Virus record (IMG/VR): IMGVR_UViG_3300031277_000015
Location: 1 to 23,313 of that record
DNA: 23,313 nt
From: a virus
Reading direction: 5' to 3' (one strand)
Part shown: positions 4,612 through 21,532 of the stretch, one piece after another
Numbering within the stretch: position 1 is the stretch's first letter
Layout of the letters: the number at the start of each line of letters is the position of its first letter
Notes under the pieces: model-generated
What the model was told of the DNA's origin: nothing
What the model saw: the letters and a program-made list of their open reading frames with translations, nothing else
Database searches by the model: none
Made by a program: the position numbers and the translations under genes

Positions 4612-6072
4612 ATGTCAGCAGTCGATGCTTTAGCTGTTTCCCGTGTAGTCGGGATTCAGACACAATTTAAAGATTTTGGATCAGGACGGGTGAGATTTCT
4701 TCCGCAAAGAATAGCCGTTATCGGTCAGGGTAAAAGCGCGGAAACTTATTCGCTGGATAAATATGCCGTTACAAGCGCGGCGCAGGTGGCAGCAAGATAT
4801 GGTTTTGGGTCTCCGCTTCATCTCGCAGCTATGATGCTTTTCCCAAAAAATGGAGACGGTGTGGGGTCTATCCCTGTGACAATATATCCGCTGGAAGACG
4901 ATTCAATGGCGGTTACTGCGGCTGGCAATTTGGCAGCTTTAGGAACGCAGACTGAAACAGCGGAGTACAAAATAAAAGTGAGCAACATCGAGGCAACAGT
5001 TGTTCTTCAGGAAGATGATACGGCAGACACAGCACTAGGACGGATAAGAACTGCAATTTTGGCCGTTCTTGAAATGCCGATCATACCTGGAGCTGTGGCC
5101 GCCGGGAATTTGCCGTTTGATGTTAAATGGGCTGGAGAATCCGGAAATGATGTTCATGTGGAAATTGACGGCGACGCGCATGGAATTGTTTTTACGATTA
5201 CGCAGCCTGTAGGCGGTCTTGTGAATCCGGACATCACGGAAGCACTTGAACAGATGGGGTCGGTATGGGAAACAATAGTTGTCAATTGTCTTAATTACGA
5301 TGACACTGACGCGCTGGATGCTTTACAAGAGGCCGGAGAAACACGATGGGGGCCGCTTGAGAAAAAGCCTTTCTTCACGATAAGCGGTACAGGGGATGCT
5401 TATGCCGTGAGAACTGTAATAACAGACGCGAGAGCCGATGATAAAATTAATGTGCTTGAATCTTGTCCGGGATGCTGGAATTTACCCGCGCAAATAGCGG
5501 CCAGAGCAGCTGCAAGAATAGCGGTTAAGGCACAGAATAATCCGCCTTTGAATTATTCCGACAAACTTACAGGATTGACTCCTGGAGACGATGCCTATCA
5601 GGAAGAATGGGCGACAAGAGATTTATCTGTTAAGGCCGGGTCTGGAACTACAATTGTAGTCGGAGATGAAATTGAAATGAATGATACTATCACGATGTAT
5701 CATCCGGAAGGAGAAGAACCTCCGGGATTTAGGTATGTTGTTGATATTGTCAAACTTCAGAATGTGATATATAATTGTAGATTAATATTTGAATCTGAAG
5801 AATGGAAAGGCGCGCCATTACTGCCGGATGCTACGCCAACAGTGAATCCTGCAGCTAAGAAGCCGAAGGACGCGAAAACGGCACTCTGTAATTTGGCAGC
5901 AAATCTTGCGCTTGAAGCAATTTTGGCGGAATCAGACTTTACAAAAGAAAATATGACAGCTGTTATTAATTCAACTAATCCTAAGAGACTTGACTGGACT
6001 TATCCGGTTAAACTATCGGGGAATGTTGAAATTATAGATGGTACTATTAATTTTGGATTTTATTTCGGATAG
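4612..6072 (+). CDS. L: Contractile tail sheath protein, Mu gpL-like
   Basis: This 486-residue protein belongs to the Mu gpL-type tail sheath family. The N terminus (VVGIQTQFKDFGSG) is followed by PQRIAVIGQGKSA and by a long alternating alpha/beta region with VWETIVVNCLNYDD. The C-terminal half contains WNLPAQIAARAAARIAVKAQNNPPLNYSDKLTG split by short loops, a WATRDLS segment and the closing NVEIIDGTINFGFYFG. The sheath polymerises around the tail tube and contracts at infection, so this gene makes the phage a myovirus. AGGAGG sits just upstream, and the tube gene follows after 10 nt. Confidence 0.92.
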   Translation: MSAVDALAVSRVVGIQTQFKDFGSGRVRFLPQRIAVIGQGKSAETYSLDKYAVTSAAQVAARYGFGSPLHLAAMMLFPKNGDGVGSIPVTIYPLEDDSMAVTAAGNLAALGTQTETAEYKIKVSNIEATVVLQEDDTADTALGRIRTAILAVLEMPIIPGAVAAGNLPFDVKWAGESGNDVHVEIDGDAHGIVFTITQPVGGLVNPDITEALEQMGSVWETIVVNCLNYDDTDALDALQEAGETRWGPLEKKPFFTISGTGDAYAVRTVITDARADDKINVLESCPGCWNLPAQIAARAAARIAVKAQNNPPLNYSDKLTGLTPGDDAYQEEWATRDLSVKAGSGTTIVVGDEIEMNDTITMYHPEGEEPPGFRYVVDIVKLQNVIYNCRLIFESEEWKGAPLLPDATPTVNPAAKKPKDAKTALCNLAANLALEAILAESDFTKENMTAVINSTNPKRLDWTYPVKLSGNVEIIDGTINFGFYFG

Positions 6073-7094: not shown

Positions 7095-8920
7095 TGGCAT
7101 CAAGATTCAGTGTGGAAGCTATATTCAGTGCGATTGATAGGATGTCTGCGCCTGTAAAAAAAATGAGTTTGTCTACTAAAGCATTGTCCACAGGCATTAA
7201 AAGAGATTTCGCAGCAGCACAAAGACAAGCTGAAAACATGGGACGATCAATTAGCGGTGCTGGGAAAAAGATATTTAAATATGGACTCGCCGCAGGTGGA
7301 CTTGCTACAGGTTTAATAGTTCGAGAATTTATAAATTTTGATCAGGCCATAACTTCTGCATCTTCAAAGTTCGGCGATTTGAATTTAGCTACAGCGGAAG
7401 GACAAAAAATATTAGCAGATTTAGGTTCTACCGCGCGGAATGTAGGCGCGGGAACACAGTTCACGGCAACACAAGCAGCACAAGGACTTGAATTTTTGGC
7501 AATGGCTGGATTTTCCGCTAAGCAATCAATGGCACTTTTACCCGGAGTTGTTGATCTTGCAACTGCGTCAAATATTGAACTTTCCAGAGCAACGGATATC
7601 GCATCTGATGCAATAGGCGCATTTGGAATGATGAGTTCGGATACTGCAAAATTAACCGAAAATTTTACACGCATTAATGATGTTATGGCAAAAACAGTTA
7701 CTTCTACAAATACAACACTTGAAGACTTATTTGAGGCCGCTAAAATGGGCGCGCCTGTATTTACTTCGGCCGGTCAGGACATAGAAACTTTTTCGGCAAT
7801 TGCCGGAAGGATGGCGGCCAATGGTATAAAAGCCTCTAACGCAGGGACTGCATTAAGAATGGGATTATTACGTTTATCGAAACCTCCGGCAGAAGCAGCC
7901 AAAGCATTACAAAGCATGAATATACGCACTGCCGATTCAAGGGGAAATATGAGAAATATGATCGATATTCTTGCTGATGTTTCAAAAGGCACTGCTAAAA
8001 TGGGAAATCAGCAGAAACTTGCAACTATAGGAATGATATTCGGCGCAAGGGCTGCATCAGCTTATGCATCTATAATTAATGAAGGCGTAGATCAGACACA
8101 GGCACTTGAAAAAGTATTAAGAGATAGCGGCGGGGCAGCCGCAAAGATGGCGGAAATTGTCAGAGGGTCTTTGCTCAATAAACTCAAAATGTTATGGTCT
8201 GCAACAGTTGAAATAGGATTTAAATTTATTGATGCATTCGCGAAACAAGGCGGAAATGCGATTGATTCCATAACAAAAGCAGTAAGTGAATTTAATCCAC
8301 AGCCTATTATTGATGTATTTAAATCAGTATATAAATTTTTAAGATTTATTAAACCTTTAATACCGTATTTACTTGCTTTAATAGCGGCATGGATGATCTA
8401 TAAAAAAGTTATGCTTATTGTTGCAGCAGTGCAAATGATAGTTGCTTTAACGAATCCTGTCACGCTTATTATAATCGGAGTAATCGCACTTATCGCAATT
8501 GTAATGCTTTTAATAAAAAATTGGGATAAAGTAAAATCTGTTTTTATATCTGCCGGGAAAGCTATAATAAATTTATTAAAAGAAACAGGAAAATTTATAA
8601 TGAGACTTTTGCTTGCTCCGGTTAATATGGTAATTGATGCTATTATTGGATTATTAAAACTTGCTTCTAAAATTCCAGGAGTCGGAAAGAAATTTTCTGC
8701 GGCTGTTGAATGGGCAACTGAAATGCAAAATAAAATGAATTCTCCGTTTGAAGCTACAAAACCAGAAGTAACTACACAGAGGGAAGCGATAACAAAAACA
8801 ATTGAAAATAAAAATAATACAAGCAGGGTGGTAATTGAAAATCAATCAAATAATAATGTGAGAAACGGAAGCCGCCCGATTAAAACCGGAACATCATTAA
8901 ATCTTGCAACATCGGGGTAA
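7094..8920 (+). CDS. Tail tape measure protein
   Basis: At 608 residues this is a short member of the TP901-1-type tape measure family. The family core is clear: FDQAITSASSKFGDLN near 80, GTQFTATQAAQGLEFLAMAG near 118, ATDIASDAIGAFGM near 168, and GNQQKLATIGMIFGARA near 300. A hydrophobic region at about residues 420-475 has two or three membrane-type helices, common in tape measures and probably used in DNA passage through the inner membrane. The protein sets tail length; at about 0.15 nm per residue the tail would be roughly 90 nm (inference). AAGGAGA lies 9 nt upstream, and the ATG overlaps the stop of the interrupted chaperone extension. Confidence 0.9.
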   Translation: MASRFSVEAIFSAIDRMSAPVKKMSLSTKALSTGIKRDFAAAQRQAENMGRSISGAGKKIFKYGLAAGGLATGLIVREFINFDQAITSASSKFGDLNLATAEGQKILADLGSTARNVGAGTQFTATQAAQGLEFLAMAGFSAKQSMALLPGVVDLATASNIELSRATDIASDAIGAFGMMSSDTAKLTENFTRINDVMAKTVTSTNTTLEDLFEAAKMGAPVFTSAGQDIETFSAIAGRMAANGIKASNAGTALRMGLLRLSKPPAEAAKALQSMNIRTADSRGNMRNMIDILADVSKGTAKMGNQQKLATIGMIFGARAASAYASIINEGVDQTQALEKVLRDSGGAAAKMAEIVRGSLLNKLKMLWSATVEIGFKFIDAFAKQGGNAIDSITKAVSEFNPQPIIDVFKSVYKFLRFIKPLIPYLLALIAAWMIYKKVMLIVAAVQMIVALTNPVTLIIIGVIALIAIVMLLIKNWDKVKSVFISAGKAIINLLKETGKFIMRLLLAPVNMVIDAIIGLLKLASKIPGVGKKFSAAVEWATEMQNKMNSPFEATKPEVTTQREAITKTIENKNNTSRVVIENQSNNNVRNGSRPIKTGTSLNLATSG

Positions 8921-8921
8921 T

Positions 8922-10187
8922 ATGTGGAAAGAACGAATAATTGAGGGCGCGATAGAAACTCCGGATTCAATTCGGTATGTTTTTTATTATCGTGATCTTG
9001 AAAAAGATATAGATAAAAAAATAAGCAAATATAATTTCGGGGATATTGACGGCACGTTAATCCAGGATTTCGGACTTGGTGAAGTTTCTTTCCCGATGAT
9101 AATTTATTTTTCCGGTGCTGACTGCGATCGAACCGCGAACAGTTTTGAGAAATCGGCATCGAAGAAAGGCGTCTGCATACTGGAACATCCGGTATATGGA
9201 ATTAAAAATGTCGTAATTGAAAAGATTAAACGACAGGATTTACTTTCAACGGCTGCCAACCAGGTAATATTTACTCTCACAATGACGGAGACAATTCTTT
9301 TTGAAGTTCCCGTGGCCGGAGAGGATACAAGAATTGGAATACTTTCCGCGCTTGAAAAATTAAAAGAAAAAATAAGCAATGCTTACCAGGGATCATTTCT
9401 TGCCACTACAGTCACGGCAATATCAAACGCGGCAGACAGAATTACAGACGCTGTAAATGAAGTTGCTGATTCGGTTGAATTAATTTCCAGTTCGGTAAAT
9501 GAAATAACATCTGTCGTGAACAACACTCAAAGATACATAAATCAAAACATTGAAACATTGATGGAAGCTCCTTTAACATTGGCTGATTCTGTTCAGGAAA
9601 TGATATCCGCTCCCGCGAGGGCGGTTGCTTCCGTGAAACAAAGAATTACTATTTATAAGGATTTATATTCCGATCTTGCGTCAAATCCTACCGGGCAGAA
9701 TACCAACGATAAAAAAAATCAATGCGCTGAGAAGCAATTACTTTTACCTTCTCTTGTGTCGGCCTCCTGCGAATCTGCTGTGTTTCCTGATACTGACGGC
9801 ATAGGTTTCCGTATTCGTTCTGATGCTACCGCTGCTGCTGCTGAGGTACTGGAATTTTATCTTGATTGTCAGGATTTTCTTGATGAGATGCAATCGGACA
9901 CAGAGAACGATAATCTTGTAAATACGTTTGTCGTGTCTGACGCATTAACGCAAATACTAAAATATTCAGTTGCTTTGACTGTAAAGAATCTTGTCAGACT
10001 GTCTTTTCAGCTTGCGCAGGAGAGAGTAATAACTTTAACCAGCGACAGAAATTTAATTGATTTATGTTATGAACTTTACGGGACTTCAGACGATGAGCAT
10101 CTTAATTTACTTATAGAATCCAACGGTTTAACAGGCGACGATATAATAATGATACCATCCGGCAAGGAGGTTGTATATTATGCCTGA
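8922..10187 (+). CDS. N: Mu gpN-like baseplate/tail protein with DNA-circularisation N-domain
   Basis: This 421-residue protein starts at 8922, one base after the tape measure stop. Residues 1-125 match the DNA circularisation N-terminal domain of Mu gpN: WKERIIEGAIETPDSIRY, a central GLGEVSFPMIIYFSGADCDRT segment, and HPVYGIKNVVIEKIKRQDLL. A long helical region follows (about 140-250) rich in Ala, Asn and Ser, then a helical C-terminal part. The last 50 residues (LTSDRNLIDLCYELYGTSDD...ESNGLTGDDIIMIPSGKEV) look like a LysM-type or tail-X-like fold. Despite the family name, these proteins are now seen as baseplate hub parts next to the tube tip. Confidence 0.85.
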   Translation: MWKERIIEGAIETPDSIRYVFYYRDLEKDIDKKISKYNFGDIDGTLIQDFGLGEVSFPMIIYFSGADCDRTANSFEKSASKKGVCILEHPVYGIKNVVIEKIKRQDLLSTAANQVIFTLTMTETILFEVPVAGEDTRIGILSALEKLKEKISNAYQGSFLATTVTAISNAADRITDAVNEVADSVELISSSVNEITSVVNNTQRYINQNIETLMEAPLTLADSVQEMISAPARAVASVKQRITIYKDLYSDLASNPTGQNTNDKKNQCAEKQLLLPSLVSASCESAVFPDTDGIGFRIRSDATAAAAEVLEFYLDCQDFLDEMQSDTENDNLVNTFVVSDALTQILKYSVALTVKNLVRLSFQLAQERVITLTSDRNLIDLCYELYGTSDDEHLNLLIESNGLTGDDIIMIPSGKEVVYYA

Positions 10188-11280
10188 TTATATGTCCGGC
10201 GCACCGGATAAAGTCGAAGCAAAAAACGAAAATGAAATTTCTCTTTTGATAAACGATAAACTTTTTAAATACTGGAATGACATTACAATAATAAGATCAT
10301 TCGATACAGTTGCCGATCAATTTTCTTTATCATGTCCATTCTATCCTAATAATAAAACCATGAAAGAATTATTCCGGCCATTCATGTATAATGAATGCGT
10401 TATATATGTTGGTGAAGATAAAGTTTTAAGTGGTACAATGATGAAAGTAATTCCTAAAAGTACAGCAAATTCACAAACAGTTACAATCGAAGGATACAGT
10501 CTTCCGGGAGTGCTTGCGGATTGTCAGGCTGCCGTGTCGTCATGGCCGTTGAGTATTATAGGGCTTAATCTTAAACAAATTGCCGAGAAGCTGGCTGAAC
10601 CGTATGGGATTATAGTTACTTTTGATGGTGATCCGGGTGCTAAATTTACCGCAAACGATAGAATCGAAATCGAAACGGATGAAAAGATATATGAACTTTT
10701 AACGAGACTTGCGCGTGAGAGAGGATTTGTAATTTCTTCTATGCCTGACGGGGAAATGTATTTTAGAAAAACCGTAAATGAACGGGCAACTGTGAGAATA
10801 AACTCCGGAGAGCCGCCATATCTAAATTCGAGTGCTGAATATAATGGTCAGGAAAGATATTCCGATATAATTATATTAAAAGCAGGACATCGGGGCGGAG
10901 TAGGAGGGAAATATACAATAAAAGATGCGGAATTAACAGCAAATGGAATATTCCGGCAGCTTGTAGATAACGCGGATGACACGGAAAAAGGAAATTTAAA
11001 AACAGCTGCAATATGGAGATTAGGAAGAATGTTGGCTGAAGCAATTCCAATTTCTTTATCTTGCATAGGATGGCGCAGGCCGGATAATAATAAATTATGG
11101 CAGGATGGCCAGAAACTTATATTTTATTCGCCTGGTGATATGATTTATGAGCCTACGGAATTATTGATACGAGAAGTTAAATTAAACAAAAAGAACAATG
11201 AAATAACTTCTGATTTTACATTGGTTTTACCGGAATCTTACAGCGGTGAGGAGAGAAAAGAATTTCCATGGGCTTCATAG
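10180..11280 (+). CDS. P: Baseplate hub protein, Mu gpP-like
   Basis: A 366-residue protein of the Mu gpP (gp44) hub family: an N-terminal EISLLINDKLFKYWNDITI, FSLSCPFYPN, the mid-section VTIEGYSLPGVLADCQ, a helix LNLKQIAEKLAEPYGI, and a C-terminal GWRRPDNNKLWQDGQ followed by YEPTELLIREVKL. It forms the trimeric hub between tail tube and spike. The start at 10180 is preferred over TTG at 10171 because AAGGAGG (10164-10170) abuts the TTG but is 9 nt from the ATG. It overlaps the gpN stop by 8 nt and the next gene by 13 nt, so the baseplate genes are tightly coupled. Confidence 0.86.
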   Translation: MPDYMSGAPDKVEAKNENEISLLINDKLFKYWNDITIIRSFDTVADQFSLSCPFYPNNKTMKELFRPFMYNECVIYVGEDKVLSGTMMKVIPKSTANSQTVTIEGYSLPGVLADCQAAVSSWPLSIIGLNLKQIAEKLAEPYGIIVTFDGDPGAKFTANDRIEIETDEKIYELLTRLARERGFVISSMPDGEMYFRKTVNERATVRINSGEPPYLNSSAEYNGQERYSDIIILKAGHRGGVGGKYTIKDAELTANGIFRQLVDNADDTEKGNLKTAAIWRLGRMLAEAIPISLSCIGWRRPDNNKLWQDGQKLIFYSPGDMIYEPTELLIREVKLNKKNNEITSDFTLVLPESYSGEERKEFPWAS

Positions 11281-11789
11281 GAAAAATTATTAATCAGGCG
11301 ATAAATGATAATATAAGAGAAATTGTAACGGAAATATTTCCGCAATATAACAGAGTATCCGTCCAGGCTTTGCCTCCTGGAATTGATGCGGCTCCGCTTG
11401 AGGAAGATCAGGGAGTTTCTATTGTCATCGATAAAGCGAACCGATCCGTTAATATTGGGGTATATCCGGACGCGCAGGCTGAACCGGGAGAGGTAAGAAT
11501 CTACAGCAGAGATTCAGGCGGTTCAATTCAGGCTTTGCTTTATTTCAAGACTGATGGAACAATAGAGATTAATGGATCAGATGATTTTGCGGTAAGATTT
11601 TCAAAACTTAAAGAAGTTGTTGACGAATTACAGGGAGATGTTACAGATTTAAAGACAGCTTTTTCATCATGGGTTGTGGCTCCGAATGACGGAGGTGCGG
11701 CATTAAAAGCATCAGCCGCGACATGGTTCGGAACGCCGCTGACAAAAAATATTGATGACGCTAAAGTGGAGAATGTAAAATTATCATGA
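11268..11789 (+). CDS. Tail spike / baseplate protein, Mu gp45-like
   Basis: This 173-residue protein fits the Mu gp45 family of central spikes: QYNRVSVQALPPG near the N terminus, an EDQGVSIVID strand, GEVRIYSRDSGGSIQALLYFKTDGTIEING, then a helical C-terminal part (FSKLKEVVDELQGDVTDLKTAFSSW) and a short tail. In Mu the spike tip has a His-x-His iron site; no His-x-His is present here, and the C terminus instead reads WVVAPNDGGAALKASAATW. So it may be a spike with a different tip, or the tip may be a separate protein. It lies between hub and gp46-like gene as in Mu. Confidence 0.82.
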   Translation: MGFIGKIINQAINDNIREIVTEIFPQYNRVSVQALPPGIDAAPLEEDQGVSIVIDKANRSVNIGVYPDAQAEPGEVRIYSRDSGGSIQALLYFKTDGTIEINGSDDFAVRFSKLKEVVDELQGDVTDLKTAFSSWVVAPNDGGAALKASAATWFGTPLTKNIDDAKVENVKLS

Positions 11790-12232
11790 GTATTTTAAGA
11801 CAAGGTGATATATATATTTACCTCACAGAGGACGGCGCGGAAATATCCGTCATAAATGGCGAACCAGTAATGGACGGAGGTTTTGAAAGCGCGGTTTTAA
11901 TATCTCTATTTGCGAATGAAAATAAAGATCACTGGATGAATGAGTATATGTCGGAAAATGAAAAAATGAAAGGCAACTTTTATTCATTCATAAAAAACAC
12001 CGCTAAAACATTAACAACGATGCGAAAAGCCGAAGAACTTGCGAAATTGGATTTGCAATGGTTAATTGATACCGGTGCGGCAGATGATGTACAGATTACA
12101 ATTATATCGGAAAGTCCTATAAGAATAAATATGGAAGTTAATGTATTGGCTAATGGCAATACTATTTTAAATCGGATTTACGGCGTGAACTGGTTATACC
12201 AGAAAAATGATCCTGCATCCGGGAGGATATGA
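11786..12232 (+). CDS. Baseplate wedge protein, Mu gp46-like
   Basis: This 148-residue protein overlaps the gp45-like stop by ATGA. It has the gp46 layout: early GDIYIYLTEDGAEISVINGE, GFESAVLISLFANEN, a helical middle (AKTLTTMRKAEELAKLDLQWLIDTGAADDV), and a C-terminal strand VLANGNTILNRIYGVNW. In Mu and P2 (gp25-like W) this protein is a small wedge component linking the J-type protein to the hub. It is co-translated with the next gene (TGATG). No oddity is seen. Confidence 0.85.
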   Translation: MSILRQGDIYIYLTEDGAEISVINGEPVMDGGFESAVLISLFANENKDHWMNEYMSENEKMKGNFYSFIKNTAKTLTTMRKAEELAKLDLQWLIDTGAADDVQITIISESPIRINMEVNVLANGNTILNRIYGVNWLYQKNDPASGRI

Positions 12233-14235
12233 TGCTTACCACACCAACTATAAAAGAAATACAAACTAATATAATCGCCGACATTGAAGCGAAAATCGGT
12301 CAAACAATACCAATTCTTGCGAAAGCGGTTTTTATAATACTTGCTTACGCGCTTGCCGGAGCGTGGATAATACTTTATAAATTCGGAACAGACGCTTACA
12401 GACAGAGATTTGTGCAGACAGCAAATCGGACATGGCTTGTGATGCTTGGTGAACTGATAGGAATATTTATTCAGTCTGCTACTACATGGATCGGACAGGC
12501 TGAAATTGAGGCCACGGGAGCTGTCGGGACGATTGTATCCGGGACACAATTTTTAAGAACAGAAACAGGTATTGTATATATTGTACAAAATGATGTCGCA
12601 ATAGTTCCCGGAACTTTGACGCTTGATCTGTATTCCGGGACATCCGGTGATATAGGGAATTTGCTTGTCGCTGATGAACTGGATATTGTATCTCCAATAT
12701 CCGGTATTGATTTAACCGCGGTTGTTTCTGCTGTTACAGTACAAGGTGAAGATGAAGAAGACCTTGAAACTTATCGCCAGAGAGTACTTGACGGATATCA
12801 GAAAAAACCGCAAGGAGGTGCGAGCGCGGATTATGAAAGTTGGGGGAAACAGGCTCCGCATGTGCTTTCCGTTTATCCTTATCCGGCTGTTATACCTGGA
12901 TGGGTTGATATATTTGTTGAGGTTGATGATCAAACCGACGGAATTCCGAATAATTTTGGCACGGGATGGGATGAAATAACAGCCGCGGAAGATAATTCCT
13001 GGAAAAGAACCGCATTTGGGAATGGAGTTTTAATCGCGATATCTCAAGACGGTACAAATAGAATTATGAGATCAATAGACAGGGGCGAAACATGGGAAGC
13101 GATTGCGGCTCCTGAAGATAATACGCTTGAAGACATAACCTGGGGTAATGGTGTTTTTGTAATTGTCTGTTCGGATGGAGTGCATAGAGTTTTCAGATCG
13201 CTTGATAACGGCAGTACATGGATAACAGCGGATGCCGCAGAAGCCAACGCATGGAAAGGCATTTCTTATGGTGAGGGGGTTTTTACAGCAGTATCTGAGG
13301 ACGGTACGAATCGGGTTATGTACTCCACGGATAACGGCGCTTCATGGACGGCCTCTGCCGCAGAGGCTAATCAATGGCAAAAGTTAGCTTTTGGCCAGGG
13401 AACATTTGTGGCGATAGCAAATAGCGGAATTCATCGGGTTATGTATTCAACCGATGGGGGTGTAAACTGGACAGCGATAGCAGCTGCTGAAGATAATACA
13501 TGGGAAGATATTTGTTTCTTAGAGGATGTTTTTATTGCGGTAGCGTCAGATGGCACAAATAGAGTAATGAGATCGGAAAATTACGCGGTTACATGGACAG
13601 CGATTGCCGCAGCAGAGGCCAACGCATGGAAAGGCATTGACGGTGGAAGTAGAGTATTACAAGCGGTATCGGAAGACGGGACAAACAGAACAATGAGATC
13701 GCTTGACCTTGGTGAGACATGGACGGCGGTTGCAGCAGCGGAAGATAATCAATGGCAGGGAATTTGTTACGCGCCTGGTATGTTTTGTTCTGTAGCAGAC
13801 AGCGGAACTCATAGAATCATGATTACAAAAGACGCGGAACTTGAAGATGTACGAGAATATGAAACTTATAATCCAATTACGGGAAAACAAAATAGAAAAC
13901 CGGTTACAGCCGGGATGAATATTTTTCCAATAAGCAGATATTCGTTTGATATAACTATAAATGGTCTATCACCTGATCTTTTGGATACAAGAAACGCGAT
14001 AGATGCCGCGCTTGAAAATTATATGAATGGTAAAGAACCATATATAAGAGGTTTAACAGTTGTAAGAAATGATATTATTTCAAAAATGGAATCCGTGTCT
14101 GTAGCTTTGGCGGTAGCGCAGAGTCTTGAGGCAACATTTTCAAATTTAACTCTATTCGATGAAACCGGAGCAATTGATTTATGTGTACTCGCAAGAGGAC
14201 AAAAAGCAAAACTTGGGACGGTAACTTATGCTTAA
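12232..14235 (+). CDS. Baseplate J (Mu gp47-like) with inserted seven-bladed beta-propeller
   Basis: The 667-residue protein is a Baseplate_J wedge protein nearly twice the usual 350-390. Residues 1-243 carry the family N-terminal part (RQRFVQTANRTWLVMLGELIGI, GTQFLRTETGIVY, DEEDLETYRQRVLDGYQKKPQGGASADYESW). Residues 535-667 give the C-terminal part (VREYETYNP, KQNRKPVTAGMNIF, DITINGLSPDLLDTRNAID). Between them, at the DGIPN loop, seven repeats of about 42 residues are inserted. Each ends with a DGTNR(V/I)M(R/Y)S-D-G-TW-like stretch, as in BNR/sortilin-type propeller blades. The wedge function should remain; the propeller is probably displayed outward and may bind a receptor, glycan or other tail part (inference). 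The start at 12232 (TGATG overlap) is preferred to the ATG at 12229 by spacing from GGAGG. Confidence 0.85.
   Translation: MLTTPTIKEIQTNIIADIEAKIGQTIPILAKAVFIILAYALAGAWIILYKFGTDAYRQRFVQTANRTWLVMLGELIGIFIQSATTWIGQAEIEATGAVGTIVSGTQFLRTETGIVYIVQNDVAIVPGTLTLDLYSGTSGDIGNLLVADELDIVSPISGIDLTAVVSAVTVQGEDEEDLETYRQRVLDGYQKKPQGGASADYESWGKQAPHVLSVYPYPAVIPGWVDIFVEVDDQTDGIPNNFGTGWDEITAAEDNSWKRTAFGNGVLIAISQDGTNRIMRSIDRGETWEAIAAPEDNTLEDITWGNGVFVIVCSDGVHRVFRSLDNGSTWITADAAEANAWKGISYGEGVFTAVSEDGTNRVMYSTDNGASWTASAAEANQWQKLAFGQGTFVAIANSGIHRVMYSTDGGVNWTAIAAAEDNTWEDICFLEDVFIAVASDGTNRVMRSENYAVTWTAIAAAEANAWKGIDGGSRVLQAVSEDGTNRTMRSLDLGETWTAVAAAEDNQWQGICYAPGMFCSVADSGTHRIMITKDAELEDVREYETYNPITGKQNRKPVTAGMNIFPISRYSFDITINGLSPDLLDTRNAIDAALENYMNGKEPYIRGLTVVRNDIISKMESVSVALAVAQSLEATFSNLTLFDETGAIDLCVLARGQKAKLGTVTYA
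12961..13833 (+). repeat. Seven tandem beta-propeller blade repeats
   Basis: Seven units of about 42 codons follow one another without gap. Common signature: A-E-(D/A)-N-x-W-x-x-I, F-x-A-(V/I), then DGTNR-x-M-(R/Y)-S and a W closing each unit. Units 3 and 6 share AEANAWKGI and SEDGTNR; 21 bases are identical at 13243-13263 and 13618-13638 (three units apart). Seven blades close a full propeller. This is a coding repeat, not an array of DNA elements. Confidence 0.85.
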
Positions 14236-14917
14236 AGTAGCAAAAATGTTAAAGTCCTTATTTCCCAAAGGACTTGTATTCCGATTCTTTAACAATTCAA
14301 CTTTTAGATTGTTTATTGAGGCGTTAGCGGAAGAACCATCAAGGATTAAAATATATTCCGAAGGCGTTAGAAATGGCGGTATACCTGGATTACTGCCTGA
14401 TGATGTTTTATCGGACTGGGAAACTTTTCTTGCGTTGCCTTATGATAGTTCTTTAACTGCGGAAGAAAGACAAAGCCGGATAGTCGGAAAGTATACGGCC
14501 ATGGGGGGGCAATCAGTACAGTATTTGCAAGAGGTTATGCAGATGGCCGGTTTTCCGGTTTATGGATTTGAAAATGTGCCGATACACATAAATCCGACTA
14601 CGATTACCGGCCATCTTATTACCGGGCCGCCAGGATGGTACAGCTATAAAACTTATCTGGCGGCATTAGGAGGTTTCCAGCTTGGGGAATATCAACTCGC
14701 GGAATATAGCGGTACGATAGTTAGAGAGATTGATGCGGAAATTCCGGAAATATTTCCACAATATATTTTTATATGGTTTTTGTGTGGCCCGGCAGGAATA
14801 GGTGATTTTGTAGATATTCCAGAATCAAGAGAAATTGACTTTAAAAGATTAATTGAAAGTGTGAAACCTGCTCATACGTGGATTTTAGCGCAGGTAAACT
14901 TTGTAACGGAGTCATAG
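14228..14917 (+). CDS. Baseplate protein, Mu gp48-like (DUF2313)
   Basis: A 229-residue protein of the Mu gp48/DUF2313 family. It has an N-terminal helix LKVAKMLKSLFPKGLVFRF, the family stretch SDWETFLALP and LTAEERQSRIVGKYTAMGGQSVQYLQEVMQMAGFPVYGFE, a middle part and a C-terminal FKRLIESVKPAHTWILAQVNF. It is the baseplate part that holds the fibres, and the fibre gene follows after one base. A G7 run lies at 14503-14509 within the frame. It overlaps the J-type gene by 8 nt, keeping the Mu order gp46-gp47-gp48-fibre. Confidence 0.87.
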   Translation: MLKVAKMLKSLFPKGLVFRFFNNSTFRLFIEALAEEPSRIKIYSEGVRNGGIPGLLPDDVLSDWETFLALPYDSSLTAEERQSRIVGKYTAMGGQSVQYLQEVMQMAGFPVYGFENVPIHINPTTITGHLITGPPGWYSYKTYLAALGGFQLGEYQLAEYSGTIVREIDAEIPEIFPQYIFIWFLCGPAGIGDFVDIPESREIDFKRLIESVKPAHTWILAQVNFVTES

Positions 14918-14918
14918 C

Positions 14919-15896
14919 ATGAGAGATTTAAGTACTATAGCAAATGTCGATCCGGCAACACCGAATCTTATTTACGGGGAAATGGTGAATTTTGTTGCAG
15001 ATACTGTAGATGGTACGGCAATGACCAAAGAGTGGGTACAGGATTTATATTATGCTTTAATTGCCGTTATGAATGAAGCTGGTGTTATACCGAATAACAC
15101 AGAGGAAGGAGCAACGAGCAGCCAGTTTTTAACGGCATTGCAAGCTATTATTTCTAACTCATTGTCTATTCTAAACAAAAAAGAGATTGATAATGCTGAT
15201 GAAACAATTCTGGATACGGACAGATATATTTTATACACTTTTGATAATCTTACGGCAAATCATAATTTAAATCTCCCTACACTCGCGGATAATGAGGGCA
15301 AAACTTTTTATGTCGTAAATCTCGACGGCAGTTATAATGTCGTAATTACTCCAGAAGGCGCGGAATTGATTAATGATTGGAATGAAACTTTTGAGATAAC
15401 AGAAAAATACGGCGTATTAAAAATCACAGCATTATCCGATAGGTGGCTTGTTACTCCTCTCAATGATGCCTGTATTTATGAAGTAAGCACAGAAACGGCA
15501 GATACAGGGCTTACCTTGGATGGAACGTGGGATGATGTCATATCATTAACACCTCCGATAGGATTGGGATATTTGAGTACAAAAGGGACTCAGTTAGGAC
15601 GAGATACATCGAATCCGGCAATTATTGAATTGTATTTTGGATTAGGAAAAACATCTGGCAATAATGCTCCTAATATTAATGGGGGAGATGATAATGTTGC
15701 ACAAACTAAAATAAGTGCTAATAATAACGAATCTTTAATTATGCCACGAAAAATAATACCTTTTGAGTATGTTTCAGATGGAACCACAATTTACATGAAA
15801 GCAAAAATTATATCAGATGAATCTCCGGCAAATTATCATTACATGTATGGGGCTACCCATTCGCCGATGTATATAAAATGGAGGAGAACGTATTAA
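14919..15896 (+). CDS. Tail fibre protein 1
   Basis: This 325-residue protein directly follows the gp48-like gene. The first 75 residues (NVDPATPNLIYGEM, QDLYYALIAVMNEAG, SSQFLTALQ) are nearly the same as in the second fibre gene at 16138 and are probably the baseplate-binding part. The middle (about 85-185) is a beta-rich domain with NLNLPTLADNEGKTFYVVNLDG. The C-terminal 120 residues have a separate all-beta look ending KWRRTY and would be the receptor-binding tip. It contains no GxY collagen repeats or clear enzyme motif. Its stop overlaps the next start (TAATG). Role is inferred from position and domain layout. Confidence 0.8.
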   Translation: MRDLSTIANVDPATPNLIYGEMVNFVADTVDGTAMTKEWVQDLYYALIAVMNEAGVIPNNTEEGATSSQFLTALQAIISNSLSILNKKEIDNADETILDTDRYILYTFDNLTANHNLNLPTLADNEGKTFYVVNLDGSYNVVITPEGAELINDWNETFEITEKYGVLKITALSDRWLVTPLNDACIYEVSTETADTGLTLDGTWDDVISLTPPIGLGYLSTKGTQLGRDTSNPAIIELYFGLGKTSGNNAPNINGGDDNVAQTKISANNNESLIMPRKIIPFEYVSDGTTIYMKAKIISDESPANYHYMYGATHSPMYIKWRRTY

Positions 15897-16141
15897 TGAA
15901 ACGACCATATTTAACAACTGAAGGAATGCCTGTAATGACAAACTGTCCACAAAAAGACTGGGCTGAAATTACGGATGAAGACTACAAAAAAATCTGCAAA
16001 GAACGGAATGACCAGATAGCGGAAGATCAGGCAAGACAAGAGGAAGAAATGAAGCCTATCCGGGAAAGACAGAAACTTATCAATGAGCGCATGAGACAGA
16101 TTGCGGAGCAACAATTAATTGACGAAGGAGTAATTAAATGA
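15896..16141 (+). CDS. Small charged coiled-coil protein between the fibre genes
   Basis: An 81-residue protein (MKRPYLTTEGMPVMTNCPQK...) whose ATG overlaps the fibre-1 stop (TAATG) with GAGGAG just upstream. An in-frame upstream start at 15878 lies in fibre 1 and is less likely. The N-terminal 25 residues are unordered; from about residue 25 on it is one long charged helix (EDQARQEEEMKPIRERQKLI). Position after a fibre gene and size suggest a fibre-specific assembly factor, but there is no sequence match I recognise, so this is inference. Its stop overlaps fibre 2 (ATGA). Confidence 0.68.
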   Translation: MKRPYLTTEGMPVMTNCPQKDWAEITDEDYKKICKERNDQIAEDQARQEEEMKPIRERQKLINERMRQIAEQQLIDEGVIK

Positions 16142-16995
16142 GAGACATATCAGGACTTATTAATGTTGATCCGCCAACCGCTAATCTGCCGTACGGTGAG
16201 ATGAAAAATGTAGTCAGTCCAGGCGACGGAACCGGAACACCTGTTGTGAAAGAATATATACAAGACCTTTATTATGCATTAATTGCTGTATTAGAGGAAG
16301 CCGGAATTATACCGGATAATACCGAGGAGGGGATTACAAGCAGTCAGTTTCTTACGGCGTTACTTTATTGTATCAGTCACATTAATGATGTTTTGCACAT
16401 CTTGGATACTACAGAATCTACAACAAAAGACACAGGATCGATAGTGACTGAGGGTGGCATAGGTGTTGAGAAAAACGGCAATTTTGGCGGAGATTTAGGA
16501 ATCGGAGGTGATTTGACTGTTGCGGATACAACAGAGTCCACTACAAAAGATACAGGATGTGCCATATTTGAGGGCGGTATTGGCGTTGAGAAAAACGTTA
16601 ATATCGGAGGTGATTTTGCTTTAGCAACAGGCAAAGATGTAAAAATTGTTGGAGCAGGAAGACTCGAACATGATGGTAGTCCAGTTGCAGGATATTTAAA
16701 TGACGGGACACCATATTATATTAAGGAAATTAATATTGGAGACTGGAATATGGATTCTACTGCATCTGTAACGGTTGCTCATGGATGTACTTATGCCAAT
16801 ATATTAGATATTAATGTTTTGATAAGAGATGACAGTGATACTTACAGATATTTTTTACAAGATACTAACAAAGGTTCAGTAGATATAGGTTCAGTAAATT
16901 TAACCTTATGGCGTATAGGAGGCGGATATTTTGATAATGCACTTTTTGATTCTACTTCTTTCAATAGAGGATTTATTAAAATAAGATATAAATAA
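16138..16995 (+). CDS. Tail fibre protein 2, paralogue of fibre 1
   Basis: This 285-residue protein begins with the same N-terminal domain as fibre 1 (NVDPPTANLPYGEM, QDLYYALIAVLEEAG, NTEEGITSSQFLTAL) but has a different body. Residues 90-160 hold two repeats with TTESTTKDTG and EGGIGVEKN, each 40 residues apart, a motif common in phage fibre shafts. The C-terminal part (about 190-285, ending FNRGFIKIRYK) is beta-rich and unlike fibre 1. So two fibres sharing an anchor but with different tips are encoded in tandem. The stop at 16993-16995 abuts the stop of the opposite-strand gene. Confidence 0.8.
   Translation: MRDISGLINVDPPTANLPYGEMKNVVSPGDGTGTPVVKEYIQDLYYALIAVLEEAGIIPDNTEEGITSSQFLTALLYCISHINDVLHILDTTESTTKDTGSIVTEGGIGVEKNGNFGGDLGIGGDLTVADTTESTTKDTGCAIFEGGIGVEKNVNIGGDFALATGKDVKIVGAGRLEHDGSPVAGYLNDGTPYYIKEINIGDWNMDSTASVTVAHGCTYANILDINVLIRDDSDTYRYFLQDTNKGSVDIGSVNLTLWRIGGGYFDNALFDSTSFNRGFIKIRYK
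16405..16618 (+). repeat. Two 40-codon repeats in fibre 2
   Basis: Copies at about 16405-16498 and 16525-16618 with a period of 120 nt encode TTESTTKDTG...EGGIGVEKN...GGD. The DNA is less alike than the protein, so the duplication is not very recent. Such repeats form shaft segments in other phage fibres. Confidence 0.8.
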
Positions 16996-20940: not shown

Positions 20941-21170
20941 TATGGCTCATCCTCTTTTTTTACTTGATATTTATTTTTAGCATGATTAACAGCACTTACA
21001 GACCCCCACACAACGCCCACAATACCGGATTGAGCAAGTAAGATAATATCCATATCGCTTATTGTTGCTTTATTAACGCCTACTTTGTATAAGGTCATGA
21101 TTGCAAATGTACAAATAATAATTTCCGAAATCGTTAAAACCGTTATTCCTATTTTTTTATATGGCTTCAT
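20940..21170 (-). CDS. Holin candidate, two membrane segments
   Basis: A 76-residue protein with two hydrophobic segments (ITVLTISEIIICTFAIMTLY and IILLAQSGIVGVVWGSVSAV) and a charged C-terminal end (KNKYQVKKEDEP). Size, two helices, basic C-terminal tail and place directly downstream of the endolysin gene fit a class II holin. No sequence family match is claimed. Its start overlaps the endolysin stop (ATGA). Confidence 0.6.
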   Translation of the reverse strand: MKPYKKIGITVLTISEIIICTFAIMTLYKVGVNKATISDMDIILLAQSGIVGVVWGSVSAVNHAKNKYQVKKEDEP

Positions 21171-21532
21171 GTGTGTTTTCTATTGTCCCACTGCCTTTTA
21201 CTTCCGATATCCACATGGACAAATGTGTCATAAATCCCTATTCCCCCGGTAAATATATCTTCTGATGTCAGAGCGACTGAATGCAGTTCCGGGATTGTAA
21301 ATCCTTTAACGTGGAAGTCACAGGCTTGACCCAAAGTATGATATGATCCTGGTACACCTCCGACTTCTTCGTTATGTTTTGGACATCTATTGACACAGTG
21401 TACTATTACTTGTTTTTTTACTAAGTCCCTGAAGGATTGCATCATGTTCACCAGGGCAGGTTCAACTATGCATTGCCCGCATCCGCAGCGGCATTCCCAT
21501 TCGATAGTGCTAAAATTTTTTGAAAGCATCAT
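21167..21532 (-). CDS. Endolysin, M15-type peptidase
   Basis: This 121-residue protein is an M15A (peptidase_M15_3-like) D-Ala-D-Ala carboxypeptidase-type endolysin. The zinc site is seen: His65 and Asp72 in SYHTLGQACD and His106 in FVHVD. The FSTIEWECRCGCGQC start is a typical N-terminal motif of this phage group; extra cysteines (14, 16, 18, 21) may form a small metal or disulphide site. The GG(I)GIYDTFVHVD ending is family-like. The usual SGYR of the first helix is replaced by HCVNR (45-49). It cuts the peptide part of peptidoglycan. It sits between the coiled-coil and holin candidates, fitting a lysis operon. Confidence 0.87.
   Translation of the reverse strand: MMLSKNFSTIEWECRCGCGQCIVEPALVNMMQSFRDLVKKQVIVHCVNRCPKHNEEVGGVPGSYHTLGQACDFHVKGFTIPELHSVALTSEDIFTGGIGIYDTFVHVDIGSKRQWDNRKHT

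Follow-up and report, generated by a model that had tools for sequence, protein, structure and literature searches.

A Predicted Seven-Bladed Propeller Inserted Into the J-Type Baseplate Wedge Protein of a Contractile-Tailed Phage: A Candidate Host-Binding Module

The virus fragment analyzed here (hereafter the window, the whole 23,313-base stretch of DNA) carries a contractile-tail operon that encodes the major head protein, sheath, tube, tape measure, hub, gp44, gp46, J/gp47, gp48, and two fibre-like proteins (Table 1). The J gene sits between those for gp46 and gp48 in this operon, as expected for the Mu gp47/J family, and its product shares with Mu gp47/J (BW2; triplex 1) the core sequence, the predicted core fold, and the place in the gp43-gp48 operon. 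An 87-aa ORF (15878-16141) lies between the two paralogous fibre-like genes, whose adaptors are ~60% identical, and overlaps both of them, while an endolysin/peptidase-like gene is found on the minus strand at 21167-21532 (PHROG 894, lysis, E 2.8e-27).

Table 1. Features of the window, and of two other virus contigs (L259 and L262) in which J or gp48 carries a propeller.
Feature	Position	Strand	Basis or remark
Virus fragment (window)	23,313 bases		Contractile-tail operon
Contractile tail sheath	4612..6072	+	PHROG 165, E 5.7e-84
gp44-type baseplate hub	10171..11280	+	Pfam Gp44-like
gp46-type wedge protein	11786..12232	+	Pfam GP46 at its cut-off; PHROG 180
Mu gp47/J-type baseplate wedge protein, 668 aa, propeller inside	12229..14235	+	Baseplate_J; PHROG 6
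J core before the insert, residues 1-242, up to DGIPNN	12229..12954	+	Alignment with L090, L010, and L280; pLDDT mostly 85-97 per 10-residue block
Inserted block, 293 aa, residues 243-535, predicted seven-bladed BNR/Asp-box propeller	12955..13833	+	Gap in all relatives; AlphaFold2
Propeller unit 1, residues 247-288	12967..13092	+	First strand WDEITAAED expected to close blade 7
Propeller unit 2, residues 289-330	13093..13218	+	
Propeller unit 3, residues 331-372	13219..13344	+	
Propeller unit 4, residues 373-413	13345..13467	+	41 aa
Propeller unit 5, residues 414-455	13468..13593	+	Degenerate Asp box SENYAVTW
Propeller unit 6, residues 456-497	13594..13719	+	
Propeller unit 7, residues 498-535	13720..13833	+	No Asp box; leads directly into J helix AELEDV
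J core after the insert, residues 536-668 and stop	13834..14235	+	pLDDT 90-98 in most blocks
gp48-type wedge protein, 229 aa, no insert	14228..14917	+	Pfam Phage_Mu_Gp48, 44.9 bits (cut-off 37.4)
Tail-fibre-like protein 1, 325 aa, fibre adaptor N-terminus	14919..15896	+	PHROG tail fibre; adaptor 60% identical to that of fibre 2
Tail-fibre-like protein 2, 285 aa, adaptor type as in fibre 1	16138..16995	+	
J with second propeller type	L259 4998-7163		
J with second propeller type	L262 4423-6612		
gp48 with propeller of the L259 J type, seven units	L259 7166-8761		

The J protein matches the Pfam Baseplate_J profile (PF04865) in two stretches, the first of which ends at residue 240 (99.2 bits against a cut-off of 21.1), and it matches the PHROG 6 baseplate wedge subunit with an E value of 6.8e-40. 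When aligned with seven phage relatives of 392-398 aa, it has a single extra block after DGIP, and comparison with its three nearest insert-free relatives (L090, L010, and L280) places the gap at residues 243-535. A solved gp47 homologue of 360 aa also aligns through the DGIP loop without an insert, whereas the window J protein has 293 residues of propeller at that point. Within the block the BNR/Asp-box profile (PF02012) scores 44.3 bits against a cut-off of 27, and the Sortilin profile is also above its cut-off. The J protein and the insert were predicted separately, as MAFFT misaligned a mixed alignment of J and propeller sequences. In the full-length model, for which only J homologues were aligned, the core is confidently predicted on either side of the insert, and the insert itself is of low confidence because the alignment contained no homologues over it. 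The J core after the insert is 44-48% identical to the C-terminal parts of the J proteins of L090 and of a prophage in genome G046. The first-pass annotation had described a J protein of 667 residues with one block of 291 residues (12961-13833) at the DGIPN loop and normal family sequence on either side. The long protein, the single block, and its location all stand, the true length being 668 aa and the left edge lying two residues further upstream, and the family character of the flanks is borne out by the Baseplate_J match and by the confident predicted core on each side.

The inserted block consists of seven units spaced at 42, 42, 41, 42, 42, and 42 residues. The repeat signal at a lag of 42 is strong, with a mean BLOSUM score of 1.69 versus a maximum of −0.20 in 500 shuffles, and the DNA of the insert has a 126-nt periodicity that matches the protein repeat. 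When the block alone (296 aa, window 12946-13833) was predicted by AlphaFold2 using 40 homologous propellers, the model had a pLDDT of 96.8, a pTM of 0.93, and 28 strands, and the block is thus predicted to be a closed seven-bladed propeller of seven four-stranded blades. It is usual in propellers for closure to be achieved by a short first strand that precedes unit 1, with the last unit lacking its outer strand, and in the present case the N-terminal WDEITAAED is expected to provide the outer strand of the seventh blade. Hence, by virtue of this closure by the first strand and the incomplete last unit, the two ends of the insert come together on a single blade, which is what insertion into a loop requires. 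These results agree with the earlier proposal of seven tandem units of ~42 residues, sufficient to close one propeller, and a predicted fold other than a closed propeller, which would have spoken against it, did not appear. The BNR/sortilin signature that was claimed for the units is confirmed by the profiles, but the Asp box is canonical in only five of the seven. The fifth unit has a degenerate version (SENYAVTW) and the seventh has none.

The best structural matches are complete seven-bladed propellers such as 2z2o (Z 34.0, rmsd 2.2 over 278 residues; VIA-align), and Foldseek matches to the block include YCF48 and many others. A profile of the propellers found no PDB sequences at an E value of 1e-6, and the chains of phi11 Gp45 and phiKZ gp131 are absent among the structural matches listed. 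A shared fold is in itself no proof of function. One alternative is that the propeller is a glycosidase- or lyase-like enzyme that degrades envelope sugars. Streptogramin B lyase is the top structural match, and there are weak profile matches to the sialidase-like BNR_3 and to the NCBIfam glycosylhydrolase F510_1955. However, the lyase match is only 12-14% identical, BNR_3 reaches 20 bits with the whole protein and 26 with the insert alone where the cut-off is 27, F510_1955 gives 48-52 bits against a cut-off of 175, and the seven near-equivalent units offer no evident unique active site, all of which makes an enzymatic role very improbable. Among 41 propellers the unit varies most at positions −20, −18, and −4, which correspond to the D-A loop, the beginning of strand A, and the B-C loop. 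By standard propeller geometry these would all lie on one face, as expected of a ligand face.

The distribution of the insert among J proteins was assessed in sequences collected from a phage collection, viral contigs, and genomes, of which 239 had both ends found (207 distinct sequences). Only one of the 239, that of the window, has an insert at the DGIP loop in the fetched loci, and the J match spans 668 residues in the window while the next longest span is 405. The block is not a conserved part of the family core, in keeping with its original description as an insertion. In this set there was no sign that the DGIP loop is used repeatedly for insertions, and the other lineage with a propeller in J uses a different loop of the protein. 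The three nearest relatives of the window J protein are 57, 50, and 49% identical to it, and the loop is empty in all of them. A tree built from 60 J proteins places the window sequence as sister to L090 (100/99) and then to L010 (100/95), both with an empty loop. Given that the nearest relatives lack the block, it is a recent in-frame insertion, and a single gain on the window branch is the simplest reading of these sequence comparisons. Since only one J protein carries an insert at the DGIP loop, a conserved function cannot be read from the insert.

The relatives also point to the probable host. L090 comes from a spirochaete metagenome-assembled genome, and a survey of 296 genomes of the spirochaete phylum yielded locus L280, a prophage of genome G046. 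It shares synteny with the window over the whole stretch between the head protein and the fibre, its sheath is 58.5% identical, and its J protein (375 aa) has no insert. The insert-free relative in the spirochaete metagenome-assembled genome, together with this syntenic prophage, makes a spirochaete the likely host of the window virus. The same metagenome-assembled genome has two J-like genes on separate contigs (L090, 2246-3376; L273, 4485-5525) with no other recognized baseplate genes near them, and they are perhaps pieces of decayed prophages.

Neither inverted nor flanking repeats that would be a sign of a mobile element were found at the insert, and viral contigs gave no matches when the whole J protein, the insert, or the L280 J protein was used as the single query. 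We also considered whether base composition marks the insert as recent foreign DNA. The GC and GC3 values are 0.461 and 0.373 for the insert and 0.428/0.308 and 0.361/0.203 for the two flanks, and such an origin is unsupported as these are within the range of other genes. That the architecture is known from one virus contig, with no near-identical second copy of the window found in the collections, raises the matter of whether unrelated sequences were joined in the metagenome assembly. The insert is in frame at both ends and the J sequence and gene order are normal on each side of it, and two other contigs (L259 and L262) have an independent propeller in J, so that the likelihood of an assembly artefact is negligible.

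The closest homologues of the window propeller are found in phage tail proteins and in spirochaete lipoproteins (~45-50% identity). Spirochaete genomes encode stand-alone proteins of 333-496 aa with the same propeller, and several of these have signal sequences and lipobox-like cysteines as judged by eye. They belong to the same repeat subfamily as the window insert (AxEANxW, DGTNR), and the best of them is 47% identical over the full domain, but they are secreted cell proteins in their own right, unlike the virion part encoded in the window. A FastTree analysis places the window insert among the spirochaete lipoproteins with support of 0.81-0.88, and in a smaller tree of propellers without those lipoproteins it groups with L125/L127 with a support of 0.69. 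We infer that the donor was either a host lipoprotein or a phage tail module.

A second and independent case of a propeller within J is provided by L259 and L262, whose long J proteins (722 and 730 aa) are 72% identical to each other. Their insert consists of seven 46-aa units with Lactonase and WD40-like Pfam matches and is located in a loop near the J C-terminus, at a site that is empty in the relatives L254, L255, L257, and L258. This propeller is unrelated to that of the window and represents an independent insertion in J. The gp48 protein of L259 has a propeller of the same type as its J protein, as does that of L262, although the latter copy runs off the contig. The L259 contig (G300) is 34.6 kb and extends from terminase-like to partition-like genes (functions assigned by eye from sequence). 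A profile of 20 adaptors found no fibre-adaptor gene in it, and the gene after gp48 is on the opposite strand. Complete loss of the fibre from this contig is not proven, since a 286-aa ORF without a PHROG match (L346, 8515-9375) could be a spike.

Many virus contigs have propellers related to the window insert, but among 50,697 deposited phages there are only 4 with one. Such propellers recur on the neighboring wedge and fibre proteins of related phages. The gp48 protein of L125 contains a 50%-identical propeller and the next gene encodes a short adaptor with another propeller, in L160 propeller repeats come after gp48 and the short-tail-fibre adaptor bears another propeller, and L063 and L015 have Asp-box repeats after a fibre adaptor that is homologous to the adaptors of the window fibres. 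The propeller of L011 is in an earlier loop of gp48, a second loop of which weakly matches the carbohydrate-binding domain CBM_4_9 (23.4 bits, below the cut-off of 25.9), and that of L094 precedes gp48. L011 and L094 were candidates for J proteins with inserts and were rejected as such, because in them the propeller belongs to gp48 or to a gene joined with it. L201 has an RCC1-type propeller after gp48, with PDB matches to UVR8 (E 2.6e-52). The Mu fibre docks on a loop of gp48 (PMC11915804), and hence the propeller sites at gp48 are the usual attachment places of receptor-binding parts.

Several further features were noted among these loci. In L094 (7167-8704) the ORF of the propeller overlaps the remainder of gp48, which is in another frame (8069-8081), indicating a frameshift that is either real or made by the assembly. 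Unusually long gp48-type proteins are encoded in L201 (6116-8260), L031 (1444-4380), and L294 (4766-7033), and those of L031 and L294 have long N-terminal extensions that by eye resemble lectin-type (LamG, BACON) and beta-helix domains. In Synechococcus phage B23 (L008, 2905-3873) the plus strand has a full propeller ORF in a place annotated in the record as two short genes of the opposite strand, which is likely a misannotation. L168, L172, and L178 (7053-17411) and L174 (3-9413) have very long ORFs of 3,137-3,453 aa that contain 31-34 Asp boxes and are probably several propellers in a row.

We propose that a self-contained BNR/Asp-box propeller was inserted in frame into a loop of the J (gp47) protein of a contractile-tailed phage and that, with both of its ends on one blade, the J core and the propeller could each fold. 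The Mu wedge contains one gp46, two gp47, and one gp48 (PMC11915804), and the solved J homologues have 12 chains per baseplate as calculated from the structure entries. By this homology twelve copies of J would ring the baseplate, and twelve displayed propellers are expected rather than the six that the first-pass annotation had placed around the tail tip. The propeller would most likely serve to bind the host envelope, probably a glycan, in addition to or instead of the tips of the tail fibres. According to the model proposed for E217, the J homologue goes from a handshake to a finger-tip contact, and its pin domain frees the tail tip when the fibres pull the gp48 homologue (PMC10329688). A binding domain on J could thus put host contact on a moving part of the contraction switch.

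Exposure of the propeller on the particle, its binding to a ligand, the chemistry of that ligand, and any role in triggering contraction are what we infer from such comparisons. Two fibre-like proteins are still encoded by this phage, so that receptor binding need not be the task of the propeller. It might instead be a structural spacer or clamp for wedge-wedge, wedge-sheath, or wedge-hub contacts that has no host ligand. J proteins form wedge handshakes and make pin contacts to the hub and tail tip (PMC11915804, PMC10329688), which an added domain could brace. The other 238 J proteins, some of them from close relatives that share the gene order, nevertheless lack this insert. Unrelated propeller families also recur on J, gp48, and fibre adaptors, which is easier to reconcile with a ligand-facing role than with one shared brace, so we regard a purely structural function as unlikely. 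Many propellers serve as protein-binding platforms, and with two fibre genes downstream of J the domain could be a docking site for another virion protein, such as a fibre or a chaperone, and not for the host. Yet the Mu fibres dock on gp48 and not on gp47, and relatives with homologous fibre adaptors have J proteins without a propeller, which leaves docking a decidedly unlikely function. The structural and docking roles are nonetheless the chief competitors of host binding.

The comparative evidence makes it more likely that the propeller binds a ligand, and the best explanation in our analysis is a display module like that of the evolved Dit proteins, in which a propeller on the wedge would bind an envelope ligand, an account that we consider probable, albeit with considerable room for doubt. 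In lactococcal siphophages, a carbohydrate-binding domain inserted in evolved Dit aids adsorption (PMC10688798, PMC6669499). Evolved Dit, with its BppA-like insert, and the window J protein both have a binding-type domain inside a core baseplate protein and both have sister phages that are free of the insert. They differ in that Dit is not the J protein of a contractile tail, while the window insert is a seven-bladed propeller, the binding of which is putative. Propellers at the baseplate of tailed phages are also exemplified by phi11 Gp45, which is five-bladed with a GlcNAc-sized cavity (PMC4901313), and by phiKZ gp131C, which is seven-bladed and located at the baseplate periphery. These are domains of separate receptor-binding or peripheral proteins, whereas the window propeller is inside the wedge core. 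A broader reading would treat J and gp48 of this group of contractile phages as a repeatedly used scaffold for propeller receptor-binding modules, in which the J and gp48 propellers of at least one lineage (L259, G300) have replaced the fibre so that the trigger subunit touches the host directly, and the window propeller was captured from a spirochaete surface lipoprotein. Taken as a whole we consider this possible but doubtful.

The window J protein therefore represents ordinary parts in an unusual join, with an architecture and a recent origin that are well evidenced and a putative host-binding function that has comparative support. Textbook contractile phages recognize the host by fibres that are hung on the wedge. 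Here, a wedge protein of the contraction switch itself bears a complete predicted propeller, and unrelated propellers are found in J or gp48 elsewhere. If these propellers bind the host, recognition and triggering would be joined in one protein, and the baseplate itself, besides the tail fibres, may hold host-binding modules. The loops of J and gp48 are places to seek receptor-binding modules that have been overlooked, and they may provide a handle on the phages of spirochaetes.
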